Positions 5,840-23,849 of a stretch of 64,000 bases of DNA are shown one piece after another. The notes below the pieces were generated by a model that saw only the letters and a program-made list of their open reading frames with translations, did not search any database and was not told the DNA's origin. The DNA is from Streptomyces aurantiacus (GTDB lineage Bacteria; Actinomycetota; Actinomycetes; Streptomycetales; Streptomycetaceae): positions 8,060,001 to 8,124,000 of the forward strand of contig NZ_CP114283.1 of assembly GCF_027107535.1 (NCBI RefSeq). Reading direction: 5' to 3'. A program made the translations under genes and the position numbers. The stretch's first letter is position 1. The number at the start of each line of letters is the position of its first letter.

Positions 5840-6247
5840 GTGGTTGTGGCTCGTTGGGTTTTGGGGGTGTGCGCGGTGGCGGCTCTGCTCGTGACAGCTG
5901 GGTTGGCGGTCATGCTGGTGATGGGTCGGTTGAATGCGGCCTCGCAGGTGGCTGGGGTAGCGGGGACCGTGCTGTCGGCGGCGGGTCTGGTGGTGTCGGT
6001 CGTGGCGTTCTTCCGTACCGCTCCCGGGCCGGTGCGGAGGGTACGGGGTGGCAGTGTGGCGGTTGCCGGTGATGCGAACGGCGCTGCTCTGGGTGAGGAC
6101 TCGCACGTCGTCGGGCCGGCTTCCGCTCGTGGGCCCGGTGCGGGTGGGGCGCAGGTGGACGTGGAGTCGGGGCCGGACGGTATTGCTGTTGGCGGCGACG
6201 CGAACGACGCGGCGTTGGGCAAGCGATCCAAGCGAACCCGCTCTTGA
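5840..6247 (+). CDS. Membrane partner of STAND NTPase, with GGDA-type repeats
   Basis: 135 aa from GTG 5840 (GTG 5846 is also possible). Two hydrophobic segments (about 5-27 and 36-58) are followed by a soluble tail. The tail holds two copies of a short motif, VAVAGDANGAAL and IAVGGDANDAAL. The same motif (VAVGGDAQGAAL) stands near the N-terminus of the next protein. The stop codon lies 14 bp before the ATG of the STAND gene, so the two are almost certainly co-transcribed. A membrane anchor for the NTPase through the shared motif is inferred; no family is recognised for this protein alone. Confidence 0.6.
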   Translation: MVVARWVLGVCAVAALLVTAGLAVMLVMGRLNAASQVAGVAGTVLSAAGLVVSVVAFFRTAPGPVRRVRGGSVAVAGDANGAALGEDSHVVGPASARGPGAGGAQVDVESGPDGIAVGGDANDAALGKRSKRTRS

Positions 6248-6261
6248 GCAGGGGCACCAGC

Positions 6262-9948: not shown

Positions 9949-10305
9949 CTAGGCCCCCAGCTTCGTGTACTTGTCGGCGCGGCCGTAGGCGAGGCCGACC
10001 GGGTAGCGCTGCCCGTTCAGCTCGATCTTCTCGGCCAGGGCCTCCTCCAGGTCCACGCCGGTGACGTCCGCCAGCCGCAGCAGGTAGGCCAGGACGTCGG
10101 CCATCTCCTGGCGCACCGCCTGGGCCTGGCCGGGCGTGGCCATGACGGCCTGCGACTGTTCCGGGGTGAGCCACTGGAAGATCTCGGCCAGTTCACCGGC
10201 CTCGCCGGCGAGCGCCATGACGAGGTTCTTCGGTGTGTGGAACTGCTCCCAGTCGCGTTCGCGGGCGAACTGCGCTAGCTCTTCCTGGAGTTCTCGGATC
10301 GTCAT
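9949..10305 (-). CDS. MazG-like nucleotide pyrophosphohydrolase
   Basis: 118 aa, the length of single-domain MazG/dCTPase-type all-alpha NTP pyrophosphatases. The metal-binding helices are visible: GEAGELAEIFQW (the EExxE-like box, here with one Gly) and EMADVLAYLLRLAD (the ExxD box). These enzymes hydrolyse (d)NTPs to (d)NMPs and pyrophosphate in the cytoplasm. The gene ends 5 bp before the HNH gene and is divergent from the DUF2075 gene. In a defence island this could be a nucleotide-depletion or damaged-nucleotide function; substrate unknown. Confidence 0.85.
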   Translation of the reverse strand: MTIRELQEELAQFARERDWEQFHTPKNLVMALAGEAGELAEIFQWLTPEQSQAVMATPGQAQAVRQEMADVLAYLLRLADVTGVDLEEALAEKIELNGQRYPVGLAYGRADKYTKLGA

Positions 10306-10398
10306 GCCTCTATCCCTACCAGGCGCCTCTGACAGTCGTTCCGGCCGGCGGCGAACTTGCCTGCGGGCACTGTCAGTTGCGGCTGCTATAGATCATGC
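10306..10398. promoter_or_regulatory. Divergent promoter region, possible leaderless start
   Basis: 93 bp between the divergent mazG-like and DUF2075 genes. TATAGAT (10387-10393) sits 6 bases before the ATG at 10399 and no Shine-Dalgarno is visible, the layout of a leaderless Streptomyces transcript. No convincing -35 is seen at normal spacing. Confidence 0.35.
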
Positions 10399-12279
10399 AT
10401 GCATGTCTTCGAGGGAACCGTGGAGGAAGCCACGGTCCGGCTCACCAATCCGGGCTTCGTCGCGCAGTGCGCCAAGCGGTATACCGCCGCGCACGGCCGG
10501 GCGCCGGGGGAAGCTGAGTTGCGGAGCTGGTCGGAGAGCTGGCCGGCGCTGGTGCGTGTGCTGGTTGGCGCCGGGCTGCACGATCTGCATCTGCTGCTGG
10601 AGTACGAACTGCCCGGCTCCAGCCAGCGGATCGATGCACTCCTCCTTGGCCAGCGTGCGGGCCGCCTCGTGGCTGTCGTTGTCGAACTCAAGCAGTGGAC
10701 GTTCGCCGCACCGCATCCGGTGGGAGCCGGGATGCTCATGGTGGGGGACCGCGAGGTTCTGCACCCCGGGCGCCAAGTCGGCGGATACGTCGCCTACCTC
10801 AACGACTGGGTTCCCGCCGAGCTGAACCTCGAGGTGCGCGGCCTGGCCTTCCTGCACAACGCATCCGCAGAACTGACCGGCCACCTGAGCGCACTCGCCG
10901 CTGGCGGCCCCAGCGCCGCCTTCCCGCTGCTGGGAGCCGACGACCTTCCCAAGGACGCCGAAGCATCACTGCTGGCCGGACGGCTGCAGTGCGCAGACGT
11001 AGAGCCCGTTGGCCGCCAGGCGGTCAGCGACTTCCTGATGGCCCGACACCGTCCCTCCGCATCCCTGCTGGCCAGGGTCGCCGGCACCATCGAAGGCCAC
11101 GACGGGTTCCGGCTCATCGGCGACCAGGACAAGGTCCGCCAGACCATCCATCGCGCGATCGCGGCCATCGAGCGGGGCACGCCCGGCCACATCGTGGCCG
11201 TCACGGGCAGACCGGGCACAGGCAAGACCGCGATCGCTGCCCGGGTCCTGGGCGACCTCTGCCTCAGAGAAAACGCCAACCCCAGGCTCCTGTCCCCGTC
11301 CGGAACACTCACCCAGCAGCTCACCCGCGCTGTCGGGGACACAGCCAGGGGCCTCATCAGCACCCTCACCACCACGCTGCCCCGCGGCCTGAGTAGAGAC
11401 AGCAGCATCGTCCTGCTGGACGAGGCCCACCGGGCACGCACCGACCCGCTGCTGCGCAGCAGCGAGTTCCCCGACCTGTTCACCCGGCTCATCCGCGACT
11501 GCGCGGCACTCGTCCTCTTCCTCGACGAACGCCAGATCGTCCGCCCCAGCGAAGGCACCACCCTCGACGAACTCCGCCGCCTGGCCCGCGCCCGCGGCTA
11601 CACCTTCGCCCACATCGACCTGACCACCCAGTTCCGGTGCGGGGGCTCGCGAACCTATCTCGACTGGATCGACGCCCTGCTCGAAGAGGACGGCCAGGCA
11701 CCCGTATGGCAGGGCACCGACTACGACCTCGCCATCGCCGGCAACCCTGCCGAACTCGAAGACTGGGTCACCACCCACCAGCATGCGGGCCGCAGCGCAC
11801 GCATCAGCGCCGGCTTCTGCTGGCCCTGGGATTCACCTCCCACCCCGCCCCTCACGCCAGAAGTCTCCATCCCCTGGACCGACGAGACCGGCGACCACCA
11901 TCTGTGGCAACGGCCCTGGAACTCCGGCGCAGGCGGCATCCTCGCAGGCACCGACACCCCGGGACGGGCATTCTGGGCCACCGACCCGGGCGGCCACCAG
12001 CAGATCGGCTGCGTCTACACGGCCCAGGGCATGGAATACGACTACAGCGCCGTCATTCTCGGCGAGGACATCACCTGGACCCCCACCGGTTGGCAGGCCA
12101 GACCAGAGAAGAGCCGCGACCAGAGCCTTCGTGGCCTTTCTCCGCAGCAGTACCTGCGCTACGCCCTGAACACCTATCGCATCCTCGCCACCCGGGGAAC
12201 ACAAGGCGCGCGTCTTTACTCAACGGACTCCGCCACCCAGCACCACCTCGGAACACTGGTTGCTGGACCCCACTCGTGA
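10399..12279 (+). CDS. PD-(D/E)XK nuclease-DUF2075 ATPase/helicase fusion
   Basis: 626 aa from ATG 10399. The N-terminal part has a PD-(D/E)XK-like core: D79 in RIDALLLG and E96-L-K98 in VAVVVELKQW. The C-terminal part is a DUF2075 (Schlafen-like P-loop) ATPase with Walker A GRPGTGKT (270-277), Walker B VLLDEAHRA (D341, H344), a QFRCGGS segment, and a late VYTAQGMEYDYSAVI motif typical of SF1-type helicase folds. This suits an ATP-driven nuclease acting on DNA or RNA. It stands alone on the plus strand between two minus-strand operons in the island. The family is linked to defence neighbourhoods, but I know of no assigned mechanism. Confidence 0.8.
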   Translation: MHVFEGTVEEATVRLTNPGFVAQCAKRYTAAHGRAPGEAELRSWSESWPALVRVLVGAGLHDLHLLLEYELPGSSQRIDALLLGQRAGRLVAVVVELKQWTFAAPHPVGAGMLMVGDREVLHPGRQVGGYVAYLNDWVPAELNLEVRGLAFLHNASAELTGHLSALAAGGPSAAFPLLGADDLPKDAEASLLAGRLQCADVEPVGRQAVSDFLMARHRPSASLLARVAGTIEGHDGFRLIGDQDKVRQTIHRAIAAIERGTPGHIVAVTGRPGTGKTAIAARVLGDLCLRENANPRLLSPSGTLTQQLTRAVGDTARGLISTLTTTLPRGLSRDSSIVLLDEAHRARTDPLLRSSEFPDLFTRLIRDCAALVLFLDERQIVRPSEGTTLDELRRLARARGYTFAHIDLTTQFRCGGSRTYLDWIDALLEEDGQAPVWQGTDYDLAIAGNPAELEDWVTTHQHAGRSARISAGFCWPWDSPPTPPLTPEVSIPWTDETGDHHLWQRPWNSGAGGILAGTDTPGRAFWATDPGGHQQIGCVYTAQGMEYDYSAVILGEDITWTPTGWQARPEKSRDQSLRGLSPQQYLRYALNTYRILATRGTQGARLYSTDSATQHHLGTLVAGPHS

Positions 12280-12391: not shown

Positions 12392-14326
12392 CTATAGCGC
12401 GAAGTCAGAGAAGAATCCTAGGGCCGGGTTATCGAACGTACCGATTACCAAGCCGCGGTCGAGGAAACGGTTGAACTCCTCGCAGCTCGTCTCAGGCAGC
12501 AGTGCGCAGCCATGACAGGCGGCCAAGTTGCACGAGTCGGGGCCTTGCCCCTTCTCCCCCGCATCCATACACACCGGATCCGTCGAGCACCAGCGTGCAT
12601 CGCTCAAGGCGGACGCAAAGACGGCTCGCAGGTGCTCCTGCCGGGCCATCCGGACAAGGCCTCCCATGGTGCCCTCAGAGTCGCCAGCCGCGGTATAGAT
12701 CAGCAGACCGGACATGTCACGCCCGCTCTGTTGCGAGACGTAGAGACGCTCTCGCAGTGACGCTGAGCTGTAACCGCTGGTGAATACGAGCTCGTTGATC
12801 AGGAGGTGTCCGAGCGTGTGCAGCATGACGAACCCTGCGCTGAGGTCTCGGAGGCGTCCGCCCCGGTCCGTGATCACTTGCGAGTGGCGGTTCGCAATCA
12901 TGCCGGCGCGCGCCTGGACTTCATCCCGAGCCTCCCACCTCGCGAGCCGGTCGGGGGCGAGTTCCAAGTAGATGCCCTCGCCCTTCACCACATACGCGGG
13001 CAGCCAGTCCCTGTCCGGCGGCAACGGGCGGCGCCGGAGCATGGCCTTGCCTACCGGCAGCTTGAGCTCGCTGTCGCGTCCCCGCGTGAAGCCCCGCAGG
13101 GCCCGCGTCTCCTGGAGGACGGTCACGCTTCTTACCCGGCCGATGTGTGAACGCAGATCCGCGTGGATGCCGGGGTTGGTCGCGCGCAGGGCGTCGTCAT
13201 CGGGGGTCTCGCGGATCCTCCTGAACTCGGGGTAGCGCCAGATGTCGTCACTCGTCAGATCGTCCGAGCCGTCTCCCCCGCCCTGGCCGTCGGCTCCGAT
13301 GCCGTGCAGGTCGCGGTACATGGCGAGAAGTTGCTCGTCGCTGTATGAGTCGAAGAGCTCGGGCGCCAGTCGCTTGCGGAGCATCGCGGGGGTCGCGTCG
13401 GCACCCGCGAACGAGTGGACGACCTCCATGACCACACCGACGTCAGCCCGCTTAAGGAGCTCCCGCATGACGTCGGTTACGACGCCCTCTTGCTGTGGAA
13501 GGAAGATCGATGACTCGACCCGCGGGAAGTAGACGTTGCCGGCAGCTCGGAGGGCACCACGGACGGACTTGTCGCACGGACCGTCCACCTCATGGAGCCA
13601 CGGACGGGCCCCCGAGCAGCGGTAGGGGTCGCTGCGTCCGGCTAGGTCCTCGGTGAGGGCGGTGCTTTCCAGGCCGTCGTCGCCGCGGCGGCCGCCCATC
13701 GTGATGCCCTGCAAGGTGCGGGACGCCCCACACCCCAACCGTTCGTCACGCTGGCCCTTGTTGTCATAGCCGCAGCGGACGACCTGTCCTTCAAGCCCTC
13801 CGCCGCCGGTCGAGAACAGCCGCAGCACGCCAGTGCACGCCGGATTCTTCGACCGGTGCACCCACTTGTCGAATGGGAAGTCGTCGAGGTGTCCGTCCTC
13901 GCAGATGGCCACGAACGGCACCTGCGACATGCGCGGACCACTGCCACGACGCCCCTCGTGGACACGATCCTCGCAGCGAACGACGTCCTGGAAGCTCAGC
14001 GTCGTCCGCTTGAGCTGCTTGCAGTACATGCAAAAGCACCAGCGGGGGAACCGCAGAACGGGAACCGTCAGCTTGACGTTGCGATGGTCTTTGTCGCTCC
14101 CGACCGGCCGGAAGTCCGGTGGTAGCCGGAACCCGGCCACCTTGAGACGAGCTTCAAGGCGCCAGTCGTGGACGACGAATTCCTCCAGCGCGAGGTTTGG
14201 GTCGTCCTTCGGGTACCAGTGGTCAAGACCGGCCGTGATCACCGACGTGCCGTCGACGAGCACGCTCATCGCACCCACGCCGAACGGCGCCACAAGCTGC
14301 GCCCGCCGGATGCTTCCGCTACTCAT
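12392..14326 (-). CDS. drmB: DISARM protein DrmB (DUF1998)
   Basis: 644 aa. Begins MSSGSIRRAQLVAPFGVGAM, the usual DrmB opening, and ends with the cysteine-rich DUF1998 region (STDPVCMD, SCNLAACHGCALLP, SCEEFNR). A second cluster, WCFCMYCKQ, lies near residue 97. DrmB forms a complex with the DrmA helicase; together they bind unmethylated foreign DNA in known DISARM systems. It is the last gene of a five-gene operon, 14 bp after drmA, with TAGGAGGA upstream of the start. No drmC (phospholipase D) follows. It converges on the DUF2075 gene across a 112-bp gap without visible features. Confidence 0.88.
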   Translation of the reverse strand: MSSGSIRRAQLVAPFGVGAMSVLVDGTSVITAGLDHWYPKDDPNLALEEFVVHDWRLEARLKVAGFRLPPDFRPVGSDKDHRNVKLTVPVLRFPRWCFCMYCKQLKRTTLSFQDVVRCEDRVHEGRRGSGPRMSQVPFVAICEDGHLDDFPFDKWVHRSKNPACTGVLRLFSTGGGGLEGQVVRCGYDNKGQRDERLGCGASRTLQGITMGGRRGDDGLESTALTEDLAGRSDPYRCSGARPWLHEVDGPCDKSVRGALRAAGNVYFPRVESSIFLPQQEGVVTDVMRELLKRADVGVVMEVVHSFAGADATPAMLRKRLAPELFDSYSDEQLLAMYRDLHGIGADGQGGGDGSDDLTSDDIWRYPEFRRIRETPDDDALRATNPGIHADLRSHIGRVRSVTVLQETRALRGFTRGRDSELKLPVGKAMLRRRPLPPDRDWLPAYVVKGEGIYLELAPDRLARWEARDEVQARAGMIANRHSQVITDRGGRLRDLSAGFVMLHTLGHLLINELVFTSGYSSASLRERLYVSQQSGRDMSGLLIYTAAGDSEGTMGGLVRMARQEHLRAVFASALSDARWCSTDPVCMDAGEKGQGPDSCNLAACHGCALLPETSCEEFNRFLDRGLVIGTFDNPALGFFSDFAL

Positions 14327-14340
14327 GCCTCACTGTCCTC

Positions 14341-17300
14341 CTATGCCAGGTCATCCACGACGTACGCCCGCGTGATCTCCAGTCGGCACTCCGCGTCAAC
14401 GCTGCGCATGCTCATGGGTGTGTCCCAGGTGATCGTCTTGTTGTCGGGATCGGCGAGCTCACCGGCCGGGCGCATCAGGCCCTGCTTGGGGTCACCATCA
14501 AAGAACGTGCTCGCGGCCCACGCCGTCCGCTCACCCAGCCCCCACTGACGAGCCCGCTCCGCGGCCCAGTAGTCAAACATGGGGACCTCCTCGGGGTCGA
14601 CAAGCTCTGCACGCTGGCGCAGGAGCGCGACCGCTGCGTCGTATGCGGCCTTTGGGAAGGGATACGGCTCGAGGTCGGGCTCACGCTGCCGCATGCGGGA
14701 GATCACCGCGGCGTGGAGCGCACGCTTCAGCACAGGCTCGGCAAACGGCGTGACGGACGTCGGTTCGACCTGGGCATACAACTGCTGGTGATACGTTCGA
14801 AACCGCTCGTAGTGGCTTCGGTCGCGCGGCTTCGCAGCGCCGTAGATCGTAATGACGAGGCCAGGCGCTCGCGTATCGCGGCCGACGCGGCCGCTGACCT
14901 GGATGTACTGTGCGGTCGTCTTCGGCTGACCCACGATCGTCATGAGGCCGAGGCGGGACACGTCGACACCGACCTCGATGATGTTGGATGCGAGACAGAT
15001 GTCGATGCAGCCCGGCGAGGGGAGCTTCTCCTGCAGCTGCTCGATCGCCTTGGGGATCTCGTCGCTACGCCGACGCGACGTCAGTTCCATCGAATTGCGG
15101 GGCCAGCGCGGCGTGATGCCGTCACGACGCTGCAAGCCGACGAGATAGTCAGGCACGTCGGACTCCAGCAGCGAAACAGTGTTGCCTAGCTCTCGCAGGC
15201 TGTTCAGAAAGTTGAGGTTCGTCCAATAACCGTCGCGATCGGCCTCGTCCGGGATCTGCGGTCCCGCCTGAAGCGTCGCGGCGGCGACGCGGACCTGCAC
15301 GGTCTGTGTCGAGCCGAGCGAGGCGCTCATGACCCCCAGGTACCTCCGGCCGGGGGCGAGCGTTCCATCCTCCAGCGTCGCGGGCTCAGCGAAGAACGAA
15401 TGCCCCTCGGTCAACCCGTGCGGCGGGAACAGCGCCACTTCGGTGCGACCGAACAGTCCCTTGATCTGGTCCTCATAGCGCCGGACGGTCGCGGTCGACG
15501 CAATGATCTTCGCCTGGATCGGCTCCCCTCCAGAACGATCGGTAGCAAGGTCGTCGATCACCGGCTCATAAAGGCCGACCATGGACCCGAGCGGGCCAGA
15601 GATTAGGTGAAGCTCGTCCTGGATGATGAGGCCCGGAGGCGAGTACAGACGCTCACCATCCTCGCCGAACCCGAACAGGTTGCGGGCCTTGGGCCGCCAC
15701 GCCATGGTCGCGAACTTGTCGACAGTGCCGATCACGATCGACGGCCTTGCTTCATAGATGTCGTCGTCGACCACATGCACCGGCAGCCCCTCGCGTCCGC
15801 CGAAGCGGCAAAGCTCGTCGATGCACTTGAACACAAAGCGATTGCCTGACCATACGTACCCCGGCGTGTCCTGCCCCTTCTTGGCACGCCGGACCGGTCC
15901 CATCTTTGTGCCGCACCACGGGCACTTGAGGAGCAGGAACGGGTTCGGCGCGTTGGAATCCGAACGCAGCTTCTTAAGGCTCCGTTCGGCCGCCTTCCAC
16001 GAGTTCGGCGTGGAGTCGCCACCGAGCCAGACGCCGATGCCGAACGGCGCCTTGCCGAGCTCTTCTTTGTTCTCAAGGCGCATGTCCTCAAGAACGCAGA
16101 TCAGGGACGACGCCCGAAGAAACTGCTGGGCGGTCAGGAGCCGAAGGGTATAACGCATCAGAGTGTCGGTCCCGGCGTCGGCCGAGTTGCGCAGACGGCG
16201 GGCGATGAGCGAGATCGCCGAAGCACCCAGGTAAGCCTCGGTCTTTCCGCCACCGGTCGGAAAGAAGATCAGATCGACGACGGACCGCTTCGCATGCGTC
16301 GGATCGACGAGCTCTGGCAGGCTCGCAAGCACAAACGCGATCTGGAAAGCACGCCACCGACCGTCACGGGCCCCGGGCACGGCGTCCGGATGCACGCCGA
16401 CAGGACGATAGACGCCCTGCTCATCTCTGACGACCTCGCGGGTGTCAAGGCGGGAACGGACTTGCTGATAAAGCATCGCGAAGTTGGCGAGCTGGAATGC
16501 GCGCGCCGCCAGAGGGTCGTGCAGAACGAGCTGCCAGCCCTCGTCCATCCGCTTGAGCGCCTCGCGGCAGAGCCGCATGTGCCGCAATGCCGCCGGCTGG
16601 ATCCGCTCATCAAGATCGCGGATCGAGGCCTCCCGCCCTTCAATCCATTCGCGGTACAGCCTGAGCACCTTCTCGACCTGGGCATCGCCTGCAGGGGTCT
16701 GCTCCGCGAGCTCGGCCATGCTCACGCTGACTGGGGTACGGCTTCCGTCCTGATGCACCTCGTAGACGTCGGGCGTCAGGCTCGCGACTTCGTACGCGGG
16801 CATGGCGTCCGCCTCGACCCAGGTCACGGGCTGGGATTCCTCCCAAGCTGCGGCGCAGCCGTGGCCGATCGCGTACGTGAGACGCTCGCGGTAGAGCAGC
16901 GCAATCGACTCCTCTTCCTCGTCACTATCGGGTTGTTCGACGTCCGGGTAGGGCTCGATCTGGAGACCTCCCTGTGCGGTTGCCTTGAACCCCATCTGGA
17001 AGAAGGCGCTGCCCGGACCCGTGCCGGGCACCTCGTTGATCACGGCAAGGGTGATGAGTCGGAGGTCCGCATCAGGCTCGCCCGGCACCATCCGGCTGAA
17101 AACGCTGAGCGTCGGTACCTTGGCGGGAGCAATCTTTGGCTCGCTCACCGACGGTACTGTCGGCACAACCTTGATCTTGTGCACCTCATTCAGGAGCGTG
17201 GCGCCGGATACTGTCGCGTCGAGCTCGAACGGTCGGCGCACCCACCAGTCGAGATCCGACACACCGGGGATGGTCACAACGACCCGGTCGTAGTACGCGC

Positions 17301-17769
17301 CGGTCACCCGCACACCGAGCGAGCCGTCCGACGGCACCCTGACCTTGAACGAGATCGCCATCGCCGAGGGCTTCCGCCGGTTGGCATCGGAAAGGTCAAA
17401 GTCGTCCGAGTCAACCTCATCCCGGGAGGCGTGCCCCATCACTTCGACCGGCGGCTGGTCGAGGTTTTCCTCGCTCTGGGGAGCGCCGTCGATCACGACT
17501 GTGTGCTCGTCGATGGCCGTGCCCCCGGCGCTCCCGCCGCTGTAGAGGACACCCACGCCGTACCGCCGTAGCGGGTCTGAGCGTGTCAGCACCTCCTCTA
17601 GGGTGTCGCGGTCATGGAACTGCCCGTTGCCCTCCTCCTTGGTCGCAAAAATGTACTTGGGCCCTGAGCAGTCAATCGGGGCGCCCAGCGAGTGCTGCCC
17701 CGGTTCCGGTCCGAACAACTCTCGGCGTACTGCGGCCTCTACGATGCCGCGCGCTCCCTCACCGGTCAC
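14341..17769 (-). CDS. drmA: DISARM helicase DrmA
   Basis: 1142 aa, starting at GTG 17769, which overlaps the stop of the upstream gene as GTGA. SF2 helicase motifs: Walker A FPTGGGKTE (503-511), motif II QDELH (717-721) in place of DEAH, a zinc-ribbon-like insert between them (CPWCG 616-620, then CIDELC), and motif VI QVSGRVGRD near residue 1000. The long N-terminal region (1-480) is beta-rich, as in DrmA. DrmA is the translocase of the DISARM core. Here it sits in an operon with a NERD helicase and two unknown proteins instead of drmC and methyltransferases. Confidence 0.9.
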   Translation of the reverse strand: MTGEGARGIVEAAVRRELFGPEPGQHSLGAPIDCSGPKYIFATKEEGNGQFHDRDTLEEVLTRSDPLRRYGVGVLYSGGSAGGTAIDEHTVVIDGAPQSEENLDQPPVEVMGHASRDEVDSDDFDLSDANRRKPSAMAISFKVRVPSDGSLGVRVTGAYYDRVVVTIPGVSDLDWWVRRPFELDATVSGATLLNEVHKIKVVPTVPSVSEPKIAPAKVPTLSVFSRMVPGEPDADLRLITLAVINEVPGTGPGSAFFQMGFKATAQGGLQIEPYPDVEQPDSDEEEESIALLYRERLTYAIGHGCAAAWEESQPVTWVEADAMPAYEVASLTPDVYEVHQDGSRTPVSVSMAELAEQTPAGDAQVEKVLRLYREWIEGREASIRDLDERIQPAALRHMRLCREALKRMDEGWQLVLHDPLAARAFQLANFAMLYQQVRSRLDTREVVRDEQGVYRPVGVHPDAVPGARDGRWRAFQIAFVLASLPELVDPTHAKRSVVDLIFFPTGGGKTEAYLGASAISLIARRLRNSADAGTDTLMRYTLRLLTAQQFLRASSLICVLEDMRLENKEELGKAPFGIGVWLGGDSTPNSWKAAERSLKKLRSDSNAPNPFLLLKCPWCGTKMGPVRRAKKGQDTPGYVWSGNRFVFKCIDELCRFGGREGLPVHVVDDDIYEARPSIVIGTVDKFATMAWRPKARNLFGFGEDGERLYSPPGLIIQDELHLISGPLGSMVGLYEPVIDDLATDRSGGEPIQAKIIASTATVRRYEDQIKGLFGRTEVALFPPHGLTEGHSFFAEPATLEDGTLAPGRRYLGVMSASLGSTQTVQVRVAAATLQAGPQIPDEADRDGYWTNLNFLNSLRELGNTVSLLESDVPDYLVGLQRRDGITPRWPRNSMELTSRRRSDEIPKAIEQLQEKLPSPGCIDICLASNIIEVGVDVSRLGLMTIVGQPKTTAQYIQVSGRVGRDTRAPGLVITIYGAAKPRDRSHYERFRTYHQQLYAQVEPTSVTPFAEPVLKRALHAAVISRMRQREPDLEPYPFPKAAYDAAVALLRQRAELVDPEEVPMFDYWAAERARQWGLGERTAWAASTFFDGDPKQGLMRPAGELADPDNKTITWDTPMSMRSVDAECRLEITRAYVVDDLA

Positions 17770-19469
17770 CGCTCGCCCTCCATAACCGCGCGTAGTGTGT
17801 CAGCCTCAATAACTCCGTACAGCCGGTCGGTCGCCCTGGTAAGCCCGACGTACATGACCGCCTCGAAGTTGGGCACGAGCTTCCGGTCGAGATCCGTGAC
17901 CACGACCGCCGACGCCTCAAGTCCCTTGAACGCCTGGATGGTGGCGTACTGCACTTCGCCCTTTCTCCGCGCCGGACCGGTCGCCGGTTGCAGGATCTGC
18001 CGGAGCCACTGATCGGTCGTGGACGCCGCGACTGACCCTTCCGCCAGCGGGCTGAGCACGAAGATCTCGTGCAGCTGGTAGTGGTCATCCCGGAGCCGCC
18101 GGATCGCCTCCAGCAGCAGCGGCGTCTGGTCACTCCCGGCCTCGTACTTCAACCATCCGGGATTCATCCCGTCGTCACCGCGGCGGAACTTCCTGTAGCC
18201 AGGCTCGAGGCCACTGAACATGTTGACGCTGTAACCGATGCGTGGCAGATTGCGGCAGTTCATGGTCAGCCGACAGATCGGCAGGCGTGGCATCCTCGCG
18301 CGAAGTAGTTCCCGGCCCGCGCCATCGTCGTAGATCACCTGCCGCTCGAAATCACCGAACAGCAGCACACGCCCCGACCGGAGCCCCCCTTTGACCATCA
18401 GGTCGAGCACATCGAGATACGGCTCGCTGAGGATGTCTTGCACCTCGTCGATCACGAGGAAGTCCGCCGCCGCGTCGTCGCCCATCGCGACGATGCTCTC
18501 CATCGCTCGTTCCGGCAGCTCTTCGGTCCAGAACTCGGCCGGTGGATCGGCGGGCGGCTTCACCCCAGTGACCGCCAGCAGCTGGCGATGCAGGGTACCG
18601 ACTTTCAGGCCCGGGTCCTCGGGCATATCGGCCGTTAGGCGCCTACCGAGCAGACGGTTGAAGCAGAGCAAACGGCCCTGATGCCCTTGGGCGAGCTCAC
18701 GCCGTGCCGCCTCCATGGCCAGGAGAGTCTTGCCGGACCCGGCCGGCCCGGTGAAGAGCACCGCATGGTTGTCGGCCATCGAGTCGAGGGCCTCGTATTG
18801 CTCTTCGACGAAGTGGACGAGCTGGTCCTGGCGGGCGTGCCTGAGATCGCCGGCGACCACCCCCACCTCGAACTGGGGCCTCAGCAGGAACGCGACCCGT
18901 CGGGCCGTCGCCTCGTCGGGGCCGACCCCGCCGTACGCGACATGGGTGGTCTTATCGAGGTGCGCGGTGCCTGCCTTGATCGTGCGCAGGACCGCAGCAG
19001 CGACGCCGTTCTTGAGGTCCTCGGAATCGAGCACCTGCCAGTCGTGCCACTCGGGCGACTCGGGAAGCATCGTCCGCGCGCGCACGGCGGTGAACCAGGC
19101 GGCGCTGAGCACCGGGGTCGAGCTGAGGTTGACCTTCTTCTTCAATAGGTACTTGCGCAGGCTGTGCATGGCGTCGCTCGCCTGCTTGAACGGACCTCGC
19201 GCAGTCGGGGCGTCGTTGCCGAGCTTCCACAGTCCGTCTCGATAGTCGACCGTAAGGTGCGACTTCACTTCGATGACCAGAACCCCGAGATCTGGCACGA
19301 CGACGATGAAATCGGCCTCTCCCTCGGGCTTCTTCACATGCTCGGCAATCGCGAGCGAGTGCAGCACGATCCAGTCGTCGGTAGCGTCGCTCTCGGCGAG
19401 TGCCTTGTGCAGCGCCTGCTCCCCTGGCGGCGTCCTCGTCGGGAAGTACGAAGGAATCATTCGAGCCAT
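17766..19469 (-). CDS. NERD nuclease-SF1 (UvrD-like) helicase fusion
   Basis: 567 aa. An N-terminal NERD domain (about 10-130) shows the nuclease-fold residues D53 in EADFIVVVPD and E67-V-K69 in VLVIEVKSH. An SF1 helicase follows, with Walker A GPAGSGKT (241-248), motif II IDEVQD (340-345), a QAFKGLEASAVVVTD motif and the C-terminal VGLTRATDRLYGV. NERD helicases occur next to restriction-like systems and probably combine DNA unwinding with cleavage. The start ATG 19469 has CGGAG 6 bases upstream and overlaps the previous gene by 13 bp; the stop overlaps drmA by 4 bp. It takes the position of drmD in class 1 DISARM, but drmD is an SNF2-type helicase, so this is not an orthologue. Confidence 0.85.
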   Translation of the reverse strand: MARMIPSYFPTRTPPGEQALHKALAESDATDDWIVLHSLAIAEHVKKPEGEADFIVVVPDLGVLVIEVKSHLTVDYRDGLWKLGNDAPTARGPFKQASDAMHSLRKYLLKKKVNLSSTPVLSAAWFTAVRARTMLPESPEWHDWQVLDSEDLKNGVAAAVLRTIKAGTAHLDKTTHVAYGGVGPDEATARRVAFLLRPQFEVGVVAGDLRHARQDQLVHFVEEQYEALDSMADNHAVLFTGPAGSGKTLLAMEAARRELAQGHQGRLLCFNRLLGRRLTADMPEDPGLKVGTLHRQLLAVTGVKPPADPPAEFWTEELPERAMESIVAMGDDAAADFLVIDEVQDILSEPYLDVLDLMVKGGLRSGRVLLFGDFERQVIYDDGAGRELLRARMPRLPICRLTMNCRNLPRIGYSVNMFSGLEPGYRKFRRGDDGMNPGWLKYEAGSDQTPLLLEAIRRLRDDHYQLHEIFVLSPLAEGSVAASTTDQWLRQILQPATGPARRKGEVQYATIQAFKGLEASAVVVTDLDRKLVPNFEAVMYVGLTRATDRLYGVIEADTLRAVMEGER

Positions 19470-20974
19470 TTGCCGCTCCGATCGGAGAAGGGGGCCCGCA
19501 CGTGCGGCCGCGGCACGATCTCTGTGTAGGGGGAACGCGCCTGCACGCGTGCGACCACCATGCTCCGGAATCCCTCGCGCTCGATCTCCAGGCTCATATG
19601 GCCATCACGTTCGAGGGCCGCCAGGCCAGCCCGGCTCACCGCGTCCTCCAGTTCTTCGCGCAGATCCGCGCTCGCCCGGTAAACCGCGCGGCGCAGCGCC
19701 ATCGCGTTCTGATGCGAGGGCTCTACAGCCAGTCCCAGCCACTCAAGCAAGAGGACCAGGTCACGCTCATGCTTCGGGCTGATGAGTGTCGGCTCGGTCC
19801 ACGCCCGGACACGCGCCGCCGACCTGACGCCCCGCGCTCGCAGCTCTGCGATGCTCGCGACCGCGCCCTTGCTCGCGAGCCGTGCCTCCAAAGCCGCCTT
19901 CCATCCGCACTGCGTCGCCTTGATGGCCTCGGCCTGCGATCCCATGAGATGTAGCGCGGCCTCATACATGGCGCCGCGTTCCGTCTCTCCATTGCGCAGC
20001 ACTAGGTACGTTCCCGGCACGACATCCCCGACGGCGGCGTACGTCACCCGTTCGCCCGCCGGCTGACGCGGATCGAGCGTTCGAATCCGGTCGCCATCAT
20101 CCAGCCAGATAGCAAGATTTCCGGCTAGCAGCACCTTCCACGCCTCGGCTTCGTCTAGTGCAGGCTCACGGTCACCAGAAGTGCGCCCGCGCCACATCGG
20201 CTGCGGGTAGTAGGTCTCCTCAAGCGGCTCATCGTTGGAGACAAACGATTCTGGCTCGCTGAGATCGCCGACAGCCCGTTCCCTGACCTTGGCCTTCATC
20301 GCGCCGTCAGCCTGGTCGGCGAATCGCGACGTTGGAATCGCTCGGTGACCGAACCATGCCGGCATGAGGAAGGTCAGCTCGTCCGTCGCTGGTGCCGTCA
20401 CCAACGACGGCGGAAAGAAGAACGGCGGCCCAACTACATACAGCTGCTCGATGCGCTCGTCCACTGCACCAAGCTCGCCGGGCAGCAAAACGGGGACAGC
20501 GAGCGAGGCGAGCCACTCCTGCATTCCAGCCCGGGCCCGATGGCTGCTGGCCACGACGGCGCAGATGGACGGATCTGCCTCCTCGATCGAGCGCCGGAGC
20601 TCGGCGCCGACTGGCGAATCGGTCTGACACACGTCCTGGGCGGCTGCCGCGATCTCTTCTAGGAGCACCTCGTCTGCCACTGCACCACGCAGTACGCGAG
20701 CCTCGCGGACGACCGCGTCGCCGGCCTCGGTGATCGCCGGATGGAATCCGCGCGGCTGCGGCTGCGTCATACGGCGCCAGCGCAGTGCGTTCGCTGCGTT
20801 CAGCAGGTCGCCCCACACGTGGCTATCGTTTTCGCTGACGGTACGGGCGAGGCGGCGAGCCGCAGCATTGAGCCGCGCACCTGCCGGATCGCCTACAACG
20901 AAGATCTCAACGCCGTGCTTCATGACTTCGGCGCACGTCTTGTACCGCCTGATGACGGCGTGTGCCCTGCTCAT
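19457..20974 (-). CDS. Unknown DISARM-operon protein, possible C-terminal part of DrmE-like
   Basis: 505 aa from ATG 20974, which overlaps the stop of the previous gene as ATGA. No catalytic motif is recognised. Residues 130-250 have the alternating strand-helix pattern of a degenerate P-loop fold (ICAVVASSHRARAGMQEWL, then QLYVVGPPFFFPPSLV and a PAWFGHR segment), without a Walker A. The C-terminal third is helical and charged. The upstream unknown plus this protein total 816 aa. DISARM class 2 carries a long protein of unknown function, DrmE; a DrmE split into two coupled genes would explain both. That is a hypothesis needing a profile search. Confidence 0.6.
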   Translation of the reverse strand: MSRAHAVIRRYKTCAEVMKHGVEIFVVGDPAGARLNAAARRLARTVSENDSHVWGDLLNAANALRWRRMTQPQPRGFHPAITEAGDAVVREARVLRGAVADEVLLEEIAAAAQDVCQTDSPVGAELRRSIEEADPSICAVVASSHRARAGMQEWLASLAVPVLLPGELGAVDERIEQLYVVGPPFFFPPSLVTAPATDELTFLMPAWFGHRAIPTSRFADQADGAMKAKVRERAVGDLSEPESFVSNDEPLEETYYPQPMWRGRTSGDREPALDEAEAWKVLLAGNLAIWLDDGDRIRTLDPRQPAGERVTYAAVGDVVPGTYLVLRNGETERGAMYEAALHLMGSQAEAIKATQCGWKAALEARLASKGAVASIAELRARGVRSAARVRAWTEPTLISPKHERDLVLLLEWLGLAVEPSHQNAMALRRAVYRASADLREELEDAVSRAGLAALERDGHMSLEIEREGFRSMVVARVQARSPYTEIVPRPHVRAPFSDRSGKWLE

Positions 20975-21906
20975 GGCGCCACCGTGAACGCGAGCGCCTC
21001 GACGCCGACGGGCGGCAGCCAATGCAGCTCATCCTTCATACTGATCGGTCGGCTGTTGGAACTCCGGGCCTCCATGATTGTCTCCGCTGCGGACTCATCC
21101 GCAACCGACCGATCGATCACGCAGACAACGATCGGCGCAGGGATGCCGTTGAGGTGTTTGATCGCACCATAGCCGTCGAGGATGGCGGCTTGGAGTTGCT
21201 CAACGAGGTGCGGTGCATCTGCCAATGCAGGGGCGGACACCACCGGAGTCGACCACGTCGCCGCCCCGTTCACGACCGGCAGCACGTAGTTCGAGAGTGG
21301 GCACGGCGCATCCGTCGTATCCGAGGCATTGCCGATGCACGCAGCCAGGTCATCCAGCAGCCATTTCTTGGTGCCGATGAGGACGAGGTCCGACGGCGGA
21401 GCGGCCATCCGCTGGGCCCACGAGGCCGACGCGCCGACATGCTGTGCCAGGAAGCCTGGTGTCGGCAGCGTTGAGTGCGACGACTCCACCGGACCGTCGA
21501 GCTCGCTGACCGCTTCGTACCGGGCGACCGGCAACAGCTTGTCGGCTACGAGGACCCGCCCATCTTTGGCGTCGCCCTGGAGCCACGCGAACACGCCTGT
21601 GTTGATCCGGTTGCTCGTCACCCCGCGGAGGTACGTCGCCCGGGTCGACGCCCGGAAGACCTCGATCGGGTCCGCGAGTTCGGGCGCCGGGCTCGACAGC
21701 ATCCAGCCACTGGCGATGAGCGCAGCCGCATAGTCGCGCTGCGGGACCGAGACGGCGACGACCAGTTGCCGTCCATCAAGCTTCGTTGTGAACCGCCGGA
21801 GCCTCGCGCCAAGCACGATGAACGGTCCGATCCACGGAGCCCATTCGACCGCTTGGTCAGGACCGTCCGCCAGGCCGAGCCTGACTGGCGAGCGTCCCTC
21901 CGTCAC
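20971..21906 (-). CDS. Unknown first gene of DISARM-like operon
   Basis: 311 aa from GTG 21906, with GGAGGGAG about 10 bases upstream. No family recognised. The protein looks globular and alpha/beta: WAPWIGPFIVLGARLRRFTT, QLVVAVSVPQRDYAAALIAS, DLVLIGTKKWLLDDLAACIG, PIVVCVIDRSVADESAAETI. The last resembles a RecA-like strand and loop, but no P-loop is present. It is translationally coupled (ATGA) to the next gene, which implies a fixed stoichiometry. A -10-like TAGTAT on the minus strand lies near 21955-21960, before this gene, with no -35 at standard spacing. Confidence 0.6.
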   Translation of the reverse strand: MTEGRSPVRLGLADGPDQAVEWAPWIGPFIVLGARLRRFTTKLDGRQLVVAVSVPQRDYAAALIASGWMLSSPAPELADPIEVFRASTRATYLRGVTSNRINTGVFAWLQGDAKDGRVLVADKLLPVARYEAVSELDGPVESSHSTLPTPGFLAQHVGASASWAQRMAAPPSDLVLIGTKKWLLDDLAACIGNASDTTDAPCPLSNYVLPVVNGAATWSTPVVSAPALADAPHLVEQLQAAILDGYGAIKHLNGIPAPIVVCVIDRSVADESAAETIMEARSSNSRPISMKDELHWLPPVGVEALAFTVAP

Positions 21907-22182: not shown

Positions 22183-22226
22183 CCTCCGGAGCCGTGTGCG
22201 CAGGTTCGAATCCTGCCGGGGGCACC
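22183..22226 (+). repeat. Attachment-site copy A: 3' half of tRNA-Arg(CCG)
   Basis: 44 bp identical to 23806-23849. It reads from the anticodon loop (CCTCCGGA, anticodon CCG), through the 3' anticodon strand and a perfect T arm (GCAGG-TTCGAAT-CCTGC), to the acceptor strand CGGGGGC and ACC. The matching 5' half is absent upstream, so this is not a full tRNA. Integrases of actinomycete elements recombine at this anticodon-loop-to-3'-end segment. A terminator with a T-run follows, as behind a genuine tRNA gene. The intact tRNA-Arg gene should lie to the left of the window if the usual orientation holds. Confidence 0.85.
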
Positions 22227-22234
22227 GGAAATTT

Positions 22235-22275
22235 AGGCCCTGACCAGCGGAAACGCCGGTCAGGGCCTTTCTTTT
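22235..22275 (+). terminator. Intrinsic terminator after attachment copy A
   Basis: Stem GGCCCTGACC / GGTCAGGGCC, extended on the loop side by imperfect pairing around a GAAA-type loop, followed by CTTTCTTTT. T-runs are unusual behind Streptomyces hairpins; this one fits a tRNA terminator carried with the att segment. Confidence 0.75.
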
Positions 22276-22757
22276 GCATGTCAAAACACACAGCCTACTT
22301 GACCGTGACCACTCGACCCCTCATAGCCTTGATCAGGGGTTTTCCATGGCCGATCGGATGAAATCCCAATTGTCCGATCCCGCGAAATTAATTCCTGCGG
22401 GACAAATGTGAGTCAGAAAGCCGCACGGTGGATCCGTCATCCTCAAGAGGCCGCTTTGACCTGCATGTTTACCAAGCGGGACAGCGAAAGGGACACGGAG
22501 AAACAGGCCGTTGCACTTTCCCGGACCAGATTCGACACGGTCCCGCGAAGGCGTTCGCGCCCGCCCGACAGCGGTGTGCCCCCATGTCCGACTCACGCGA
22601 GGGAACAATGATTCCTATCAGCGTCGATCATTGGGACGCCCCCTGAGTTCCGTCGTACGCCCAAACCCAGATTCGTGCTCACGTCGGACCAGCACCGCGA
22701 CGGCTGACTCTGCCAGCTCCACCCAACCAAGGGAGGATGCAAGGTAGGATAGGTAGC
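22276..22757. other. Gene-free stretch with GCGGGACA boxes
   Basis: No credible gene seen. GCGGGACA occurs at 22397-22404 and 22476-22483, with AAGGGACA at 22488-22495. The same octamer, and a near copy, occurs close to attachment copy B. Such short direct repeats next to att sites are typical of integrase arm-binding sites. Composition is less GC-rich than the core. AGGATAGGTAG just before 22758 supplies the RBS area of the antitoxin gene. Confidence 0.45.
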
Positions 22758-23021
22758 ATGAGTGAGCCTACCGGCAAGTACTCGATCACCATGCCGCGCG
22801 ACATCGCCGAAGCCGCCAAGGCCCGCAGTGGTCCCTCCGGATTGTCCGCTTACGTCGCCGCAGCTGTCGCCCGCCAGATCGAGCGGGACAACCTCAACGA
22901 GCTCATCACGGTGGCGGAGGCCGAACACGGCCCCATCAGCGACGAAGAGGTTCAGGCTCTGCGCGACCAACTCCACCAAGCCCGAGAGCAGCAGACCCAA
23001 GGCGGGGCGAACGCCGCGTGA
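22758..23021 (+). CDS. VapB-type antitoxin
   Basis: 87 aa from ATG 22758. The N-terminal part (KYSITMPRDIAEAAKARSG, then LSAYVAAAVARQIERDN) has the strand-helix-helix layout of a ribbon-helix-helix DNA-binding domain. The acidic C-terminal tail (ISDEEVQALRDQLHQ) would wrap the toxin. The next gene encodes a PIN toxin and its GTG start overlaps this stop as GTGA. The antitoxin probably represses its own promoter. The pair sits alone between two copies of the tRNA-Arg attachment sequence, where it could stabilise the element. Confidence 0.82.
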   Translation: MSEPTGKYSITMPRDIAEAAKARSGPSGLSAYVAAAVARQIERDNLNELITVAEAEHGPISDEEVQALRDQLHQAREQQTQGGANAA

Positions 23022-23431
23022 CCCCCTCCCCCGCCGCCCCCGGCGGCACCCTGGTCCTCGACAGCGAAGGGCTGGCCAAGGCCGTCCTGCGCGACCGCAC
23101 GGTCACCGGCTGGCTCGCCCTCGCCCGCGCCGACGACCTACGGGTGATCACTTCCGCAGCCACCCTCGTGGAAGTGATCCACCCACGGATCAATCGACCA
23201 GCCCTGGAATGGACCCTGTCCCGCCTCGTCATCGAACCGGTCACCGAGCCCATCGCCCGCCACGCCGCCGCCCTCCTCGCCGACGCCAGCCTGCACGGCC
23301 ACAAGTACGCCATCGACGCCATGCTCAGCGCCACGGCGCTGGCCGCCCCCGGACCCGTCACCGTCCTCACCTCTGACCCCGAGGACCTCGCCACGCTCTG
23401 CCGCGGGCGCGTCACCGTCATCAAGGTCTGA
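23018..23431 (+). CDS. VapC-type PIN-domain toxin
   Basis: 137 aa from GTG 23018. PIN-domain acidic residues are visible: LVLDSEGLAKAV (first Asp), TLVEVIHPR (Glu), KYAIDAMLSATAL (Asp) and LTSDPEDL (last Asp). VapC toxins are Mg-dependent RNases that cut tRNA or rRNA. The order antitoxin-toxin with a 4-bp overlap is standard. The RNA target cannot be inferred from the sequence. Confidence 0.85.
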   Translation: MTPSPAAPGGTLVLDSEGLAKAVLRDRTVTGWLALARADDLRVITSAATLVEVIHPRINRPALEWTLSRLVIEPVTEPIARHAAALLADASLHGHKYAIDAMLSATALAAPGPVTVLTSDPEDLATLCRGRVTVIKV

Positions 23432-23805
23432 CGGCACGCCGTCCGCCCGATCAGTCACGAGGCCCGCGCCTACATGCAGCCAGGCCAGCTTCTGTCCATC
23501 GGCTCCCGGAAGCCGGAAACTCGGCATGGGCACCCGCCCCCAGCCATCAGGACGAAAACCTGTGGGCCCTGCCCGCGCACCCCGGAACGCCTTCCCGCTC
23601 GATTGAACGGCGCGCCATACACCTCCCGCACTTACCCGAGGGGGTCGCGGCCTCCCACACGGCGGGACTGGCGGGCAGCAGACGGAAATTACACATAAGA
23701 CGGTGAAACGGGGTATTACCTTTTCACGGGACATGCGCGGGACAGCGAGCCAGACAACCTGCCAGGCAAGCATCTGAACTGCGAAAACACCTGGGAAGCC
23801 GACGT
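23432..23805. other. Gene-free stretch upstream of attachment copy B
   Basis: 374 bp with no credible gene. ACGGGACA (23726-23733) and GCGGGACA (23737-23744) stand close together about 60-80 bp before copy B, the same boxes found near copy A. This looks like the sequence left between a lost integrase gene and its att site. Confidence 0.45.
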
Positions 23806-23849
23806 CCTCCGGAGCCGTGTGCGCAGGTTCGAATCCTGCCGGGGGCACC
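23806..23849 (+). repeat. Attachment-site copy B: 3' half of tRNA-Arg(CCG)
   Basis: Second perfect copy of the 44-bp tRNA-Arg(CCG) 3' segment, same orientation as copy A, 1,623 bp downstream. Sequence identity stops at both ends apart from a shared GAAGCCG just upstream. The end GGGCACC can also pair with GGTGCCC a few bases on. This copy probably marks the right-hand border of the island, since an IS remnant and then ordinary chromosomal genes follow. Confidence 0.85.

Follow-up and report, generated by a model that had tools for sequence, protein, structure and literature searches.

Positions 12392 to 21906 of the 64,000-nucleotide stretch of Streptomyces aurantiacus analysed here (contig NZ_CP114283.1; the whole stretch is called the window below) hold five genes, hyp1, drmEC, a NERD-UvrD gene, drmA and drmB, which on balance probably form an undescribed mobile variant of the DISARM defence system. 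Judged from its sequence, this operon would act against invading DNA with a NERD-UvrD protein in place of DrmC, a DrmE-like pseudo-helicase split between two genes, and a methyltransferase that is optional.

A DrmA-DrmB core joined to a NERD-UvrD protein

The DrmA protein matches the NCBIfam family NF038325 (E=2.8e-243, 810 bits, short of the equivalog cut-off of 950), and DrmB, encoded by a separate gene, exceeds the cut-off of NF038324 (405 bits, cut-off 240). A sequence search of the PDB matched the two proteins to Serratia DrmA (7s9v_A, 1.9e-140) and DrmB (7s9v_B, 1.4e-71), their sole solved relatives at the thresholds used; we take this Serratia complex to be class 1 DISARM. The ATPase motifs of DrmA are conserved. 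Family profiles and PDB sequence matches agree on the DrmA-DrmB core that an earlier note on this DNA had proposed.

The product of gene 3 contains a NERD domain that passes the Pfam cut-off (4.1e-11), with a UvrD-like helicase domain behind it. Residues D53, E67 and K69 of NERD, which we take to form a PD-(D/E)xK pattern, and the Walker motifs of the helicase are invariant in 18 sequences. The Pfam match and these conserved catalytic residues bear out the proposed identity as a NERD-superfamily 1 helicase, for which the PDB sequence search gave no match.

All five open reading frames are intact, uninterrupted and on the minus strand, and re-deriving the coordinates and junctions reproduced the layout given in the earlier note, with overlaps of 4, 13 and 4 bp and one 14-bp gap (Table 1). 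No DrmC, methyltransferase, DrmD or DrmMI family was matched among the five proteins in PADLOC, Pfam and NCBIfam scans, and hyp1 and drmEC had no PADLOC or NCBIfam match. The claim that the locus holds no drmC also stood, the PLDc_2 genes of the genome lying at 1.43, 6.06 and 9.25 Mb of the contig (C2). Class 2 DISARM is composed of drmMII, drmE, drmA, drmB and drmC, and the phospholipase D (PLD) nuclease DrmC is a DISARM core gene. The operon appears closest to the DrmE-type (class-2-like) DISARM loci, among which its nearest DrmA relatives are found.

Table 1. Genes of the operon and the neighbouring tRNA repeat, in window positions (window 22183 = C2:8082183; aa, amino acids; SF2, superfamily 2)
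Feature	Position	Strand	Description
Gene 1, hyp1	20971..21906	-	311 aa, GTG start; predicted RecA1-like domain, putative N-terminal half of a split DrmE
Gene 2, drmEC	19457..20974	-	505 aa from internal ATG at 20974; RecA2-like half (~residues 4-239) and DrmE_C-like domain (~280-430)
Gene 3, NERD-UvrD nuclease-helicase	17766..19469	-	567 aa
Gene 4, DrmA SF2 helicase	14341..17769	-	1142 aa, GTG start
Gene 5, DrmB, DUF1998/MZB	12392..14326	-	644 aa
Partial tRNA-Arg(CCG) 3'-end copy	22183..22226	+	43-44 bp; presumed right attachment repeat of the operon-bearing element

The five-gene order is rare but coherent

Relatives were collected with peptide patterns from the gene-2 alignment, one genome per species, giving 20 loci with actinobacterial titles that are fairly close relatives only and contain gene 2 by construction; their gene content was read with the five window proteins as queries. 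The earlier note had proposed surveying other genomes for the same gene order, and 16 of the 20 loci hold the complete set in this order on one strand, indicating that the arrangement is not due to chance. Two further loci end at contig ends after four genes (L016) or two (L032), L033 has all five genes in pieces, and L028 is discussed below; L078, whose contig has the length of that of L024, most probably duplicates it and was counted once.

The junctions are also conserved. Allowing possible ATG or GTG starts only, and leaving L033 out here and in the conserved-column counts, the drmEC/NERD junction measures 13 bp in 17/17 testable loci, NERD/DrmA 4 bp in 16/17, hyp1/drmEC 4 bp in 17/19 and DrmA/DrmB 4 bp in 14/16, the 14-bp gap of the window being an exception. 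Gene-2 identity drops to 38% across the loci with the junctions unchanged. The recurring hyp1/drmEC junction led us to reject the idea that a frameshift has cut gene 1 off from gene 2.

Among the matches listed, genes 1 and 2 have their closest named relatives in Streptomyces, and one gene-2 relative comes from a metagenome bin called Fimbriimonadaceae. A search with hyp1 found matches in 3 of 392 genomes of the genus (the window's own and two weak) and in 3 of 396 genomes of the phylum (its own, one strong and one weak). The two weak genus hits are divergent relatives of the whole set, since hhalign recovered hyp1 (probability 98.1% and 97.6%) and drmEC (99.3% and 98.9%) in both, with NERD and DrmA matches behind them and DrmB in one. 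The weakly matching locus L080 showed none of the other operon genes at 1e-4. A PF24957 scan of the 396 Actinomycetota genomes gave two matches and missed the window genome's own gene. The five-gene system is thus rare but coherent.

Relatives of DrmA and other NERD-DrmAB loci

A DrmA tree was built from 40 sequences, the partial DrmA of L016 and L028 being excluded, and 26 of its 37 inner branches were well supported. The five-gene loci make up a single clade with 18 rows (support 100/100), which joins the loci of Nostoc, Priestia and one Deinococcus at 100/100. The next group out (94/86) contains the DrmE loci L063 and L069 and a L. plantarum locus, together with L055, L066 and L071, which have no recognised DrmE; annotated class-1 DISARM loci are placed elsewhere. 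The Priestia and L. plantarum branches were flagged as long.

Plasmid loci were drawn from 21 of 86 records with a DrmA match, hand-picked among 60 listed records; a drmEC match led to one of them. The nearest DrmA group outside the clade includes the plasmids of Nostoc sp. HK-01 (AP018319) and Priestia megaterium (NZ_CP064272). As in the window, DrmA-DrmB is preceded in Nostoc by hyp1 and drmEC relatives, the latter with DrmE_C, and in Priestia by three small genes (330, 206 and 278 aa), the last with DrmE_C. Unlike in the window, neither locus has a NERD-UvrD match, and a transposase separates the two Nostoc genes.

NERD-helicases also adjoin DrmA-DrmB on Azospirillum and Rhizobium plasmids (L065, L067, L068), in a second arrangement that differs from that of the window by its order, UvrD-DrmA-DrmB-NERD, by a NERD protein only 26-28% identical, and by the absence of hyp1 or drmEC matches at 1e-4. 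In Deinococcus gobiensis, the gene preceding DrmA is 28% identical to the window NERD protein. The repeated pairing of NERD-helicases with DrmAB supports a working link between them. The R. opacus plasmid pROB02 also carries the five genes, and its annotation places Vsr, NaeI and a C5 cytosine methyltransferase downstream of them. Separately, a Tsukamurella plasmid (L054:4558-20886) presents a DISARM-like mixture of a C5 methyltransferase, a RelA/SpoT-domain protein, a UvrD helicase, DrmA, DrmB, a DEAD helicase and a methyltransferase subunit.

Genes 1 and 2 may be a split DrmE

The earlier note had described the two leading genes simply as unknown, a description that the analysis does not support. 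The window protein matches the Pfam domain DrmE_C at 0.0015, below the Pfam cut-off; a scan that accepted E values up to 1 recovered the domain in 25 of 32 gene-2 relatives (lowest E 2.1e-9), and it is precomputed for 16 of 120 relatives among the matches listed, and one relative (P0047) is already named DrmE domain-containing protein by NCBI. By profile comparison, residues 277-490 of the gene-2 profile align with the Priestia DrmE_C protein (hhalign 94.7%). Judged by these sequence matches, the C-terminal part of the gene-2 protein is a divergent form of the DrmE_C domain.

The predicted fold of hyp1 is RecA1-like, with moderate scores and with MrfA among many other matches, and that of drmEC is RecA2-like, so that the pair folds like a split helicase. 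No GK was found at the P-loop place in 36/36 hyp1 sequences, nor a complete Walker A pattern in 35/35 drmEC sequences. The PDB sequence search gave one match for hyp1 (E 0.6) and only chaperonins for drmEC (E 0.002-0.02), which we took as chance. Against A4 alone, the Nostoc hyp1 relative reached 45.7% (E 2.1e-4) in hhalign; a value of 100% obtained otherwise was inflated because the Nostoc protein sat in the profile. The putative DrmE parts add up to 816 aa here, 824 in Nostoc and 814 in the three Priestia genes, next to 792 in a single Haliscomenobacter plasmid gene with DrmE_C close to its end and 838 in the NF038316 model. The L. plantarum protein of 801 aa is DrmE by position only, showing no DrmE_C at E up to 0.1. 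These predicted folds suggest that hyp1 and drmEC are possibly DrmE split in two, a pseudo-helicase lacking Walker A at the expected place.

C5 methyltransferases flank most relatives

The commonest flanking gene cluster spans 12 of the 20 loci, and its two scanned members are C5 methyltransferases (PF00145, 1.3e-51 and 8.8e-51); the L014 member had no Pfam match and was excluded from the methyltransferase count. By tblastn at 1e-8, a C5 methyltransferase lies in the flanks of 16 of the 20. In eight (L016, L017, L019, L021, L024, L027, L028 and L032) it belongs to one close family of 64-85% mutual identity, upstream and on the same strand, while eight others (L015, L020, L023, L025, L029, L030, L031 and L033) have distant enzymes (23-31%) in varied places and strands. 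At the same threshold, no C5 methyltransferase was found in the flanks of L014, L018, L022 and L026, the flanks being short in L018 and L022, nor was there a match beside the window operon (L012-L013). The absence of a methyltransferase, which the earlier note took as a mark of the system, therefore describes the window copy and a few others and not the family. Two other flanking clusters contain restriction genes: in the one common to four loci, the single member scanned proved to be a NaeI restriction enzyme; in the one common to seven, both scanned members are Vsr.

Elsewhere in the host genome, where the earlier note had allowed for a methyltransferase that completes the system, PF00145 matched eight times in six places, none of them a near relative of the linked enzymes, in a search aimed at C5 and not at adenine methyltransferases. 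Among long matches to the linked family the highest identity is 31-33% (135 bits), and another match reaches 41% over 90 residues only. The nearest of these genes lies 25 kb from the operon in the same element and belongs to another family. It was rejected as the missing partner, since the linked family did not match it at 1e-8 and the neighbouring segment contains a 52% relative.

Location at one end of a putative integrative element

A full tRNA-Arg(CCG) gene is located at C2:8016114-8016186, and copies of its 3' end occur at 8041341, 8082183 and 8083806; the four 3' ends bound three stacked segments. A distance of 276 bp separates the operon from the repeat at the right end of the 41-kb segment 8041341-8082226, which has at its left end a DUF3987 gene and an integrase-like gene (PF00589, 21.3 bits with a cut-off of 27.1). 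The operon appears to be terminal cargo of a putative integrative element inserted in tRNA-Arg(CCG), presumably an actinomycete integrative and conjugative element.

Between two of the tRNA-Arg repeats, a 1.6-kb segment (window 22183-23849) contains two small open reading frames (22737-23021 and 23018-23431) that resemble an antitoxin-toxin pair by eye. A Schlafen group 3 helicase-domain protein (10357-12279, plus strand; PF09848 1.1e-61), possibly another defence gene, is convergent with the operon, and a gene at 6244-8820 (plus strand), with a weak NB-ARC match below cut-off and strong TPR matches, resembles STAND-type sensors; the two may turn window 6-22 kb into a small defence island. A small open reading frame at 9949-10305 (minus strand) has the look of a MazG-type pyrophosphohydrolase by eye.

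Discussion

The operon shares with class 2 DISARM DrmA, DrmB, a protein with a DrmE_C-like domain and, near most relatives, a C5 methyltransferase; it differs by having NERD-UvrD and no DrmC, by the DrmE-like part lying in two genes, and by the lack of an adjacent methyltransferase. With class 1 it has the DrmA-DrmB helicase complex in common, whereas the annotations of the class 1 loci L059, L060 and L064 show drmD, a methyltransferase and drmC where this operon has genes 1-3. TALON, as presented in a preprint (PMC12458937), likewise combines a YprA-family helicase with a NERD nuclease; its ARMADA-like helicase, TPR-CSD and TBP genes and its largely Chloroflexota distribution differ, and we rejected it as the identity of the operon on gene content. 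The legend to Figure 1 of this preprint describes a DISARM-like clade with many uncharacterised DISARM-like classes, and the window system is likely one of them. Neither a NERD-DrmAB operon nor a split DrmE was described in the titles and abstracts searched, a coverage that extends neither to the original DISARM publication nor to most subscription journals and so does not establish absence from print. The suggestion of the earlier note that this is an undescribed separate system using DrmAB is upheld insofar as no description of the arrangement was found, but the locus reads better as a variant of the DISARM family.

A mechanism can be proposed from these predictions and from the Serratia work. 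According to PMC9142583, DrmAB prefers 5'-overhang DNA and is restrained by a trigger loop, V1296 of Serratia DrmA is thought to sense methylation, and DrmC is non-essential. In the window DrmA, V1124, equated with V1296 by counting from the alignment end only, is V in 38 of 40 sequences, and R1122 is R in 40/40. DrmA-DrmB, an autoinhibited complex in this scheme, would load onto the incoming DNA of a phage, plasmid or conjugative element where 5' overhangs or single strands are exposed. Genes 1 and 2 would represent a divided DrmE, one product being RecA1-like and the other combining RecA2 with DrmE_C; devoid of Walker A, the two may serve as a nucleic-acid-binding adaptor or gate and not as a motor, as their predicted folds suggest. 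NERD-UvrD would be the effector, a second motor and PD-(D/E)xK nuclease degrading the opened DNA in place of the PLD nuclease DrmC. Self DNA would be spared mainly for want of open 5' ends, and cytosine methylation by a nearby C5 methyltransferase would add protection in most relatives, an optional layer with no such gene beside the window copy.

Several observations weigh against the reading as a DISARM variant. The DrmE_C match of the window protein is below the Pfam cut-off, PADLOC and NCBIfam call no DrmE, and the DrmA score falls short of its equivalog cut-off. The best Z of hyp1, 8.1, is at the level given by the tool when a model has no clear match, and none of the DrmE N-termini tried could be linked to hyp1 by sequence in hhalign, so that the DrmE identity of gene 1 comes from fold and gene order. 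The gene-2 profile aligns weakly with other DrmE proteins (E36 31.5%, E63 5.0%, E37 2.8%, the rest <1%). In the DrmA tree, the DrmE_C loci L036 and L037 are distant, on very long branches, indicating that DrmE is not the mark of one clade, and L055, L066 and L071 stand near the five-gene clade with no recognised DrmE. L028, a 4-kb metagenome contig, has hyp1, drmEC and a piece of DrmA with no NERD between, and the window copy and four relatives show no nearby C5 methyltransferase. The L028 contig itself (1-3988, Propionibacteriaceae, with a methyltransferase end) may be a natural variant or an assembly fault.

It is conceivable, if less probable, that a novel helicase-like pair of subunits, encoded by genes 1 and 2, took the place of DrmE, only the DrmE_C domain being kept or gained. 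The missing sequence signal between hyp1 and DrmE N-termini favours such a pair, as do the varying single-gene lengths (864 aa in Hymenobacter, 915 and 629 in open reading frame calls with unsure starts from two further genomes); yet the DrmE N-termini of other loci do not match even one another, and several totals agree (816, 824, 814, 792 and 838 aa) with DrmE_C towards the C-terminus. We consider it unlikely that the locus is a decaying, incomplete class-2 DISARM that lost its ancestral upstream C5 methyltransferase, its remaining proteins being inactive or tamed by another host methyltransferase. Flanking enzymes in 16 of the 20 relatives, eight of one close family upstream on the same strand, and host PF00145 genes in six places, one of them 25 kb off in the same element, would fit decay, but the five genes are intact with conserved motifs and the element's own methyltransferase is unmatched by the linked family at 1e-8. 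Moreover, the close Streptomyces locus L014 likewise has no C5 methyltransferase match in ~9 kb upstream, so the methyltransferase-less state may predate a single accident.

The stacked segments bounded by tRNA-Arg 3' ends, with the operon at the end of one, the relatives on plasmids and the DISARM protection against plasmid conjugation cited in PMC9142583 could also point to a conflict system that excludes rival integrative elements or plasmids and not mainly phages. We hold this for improbable: the mobility of the element is deduced from repeats and from an integrase-like gene below the Pfam cut-off, and such a role would be compatible with phage defence. A DNA-repair helicase-nuclease set like MrfAB, with no part in defence, seems very improbable. 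DrmA and DrmB are in the same helicase family as MrfA (PMC12458937), whose fold is among those matched by hyp1, but the system is rare and scattered (3/392 genus and 3/396 phylum genomes, own genome and weak hits included), has relatives on plasmids and restriction genes in several flanks, and its solved relatives are all DISARM proteins.

Returning to the DISARM variant, a bolder form of it, which we advance tentatively and with some doubt, is that the operon represents a third kind of DISARM, mobile and mainly actinobacterial, in which a dead two-RecA DrmE split into two proteins would gate DrmAB, NERD-UvrD would be the built-in effector, self and non-self would be told apart by DNA-end structure, and methylation would be dispensable. 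If this were true, DrmE of ordinary class-2 DISARM would be an unrecognised pseudo-helicase. The passages of the literature consulted leave open which DISARM component does the cutting and by what means self DNA escapes. A naturally occurring set that includes its own nuclease-helicase and, in some copies, lacks a linked methyltransferase would separate cutting from self-sparing and make each testable with five genes, and the predicted folds give a definite hypothesis, open to test, on the nature of DrmE.

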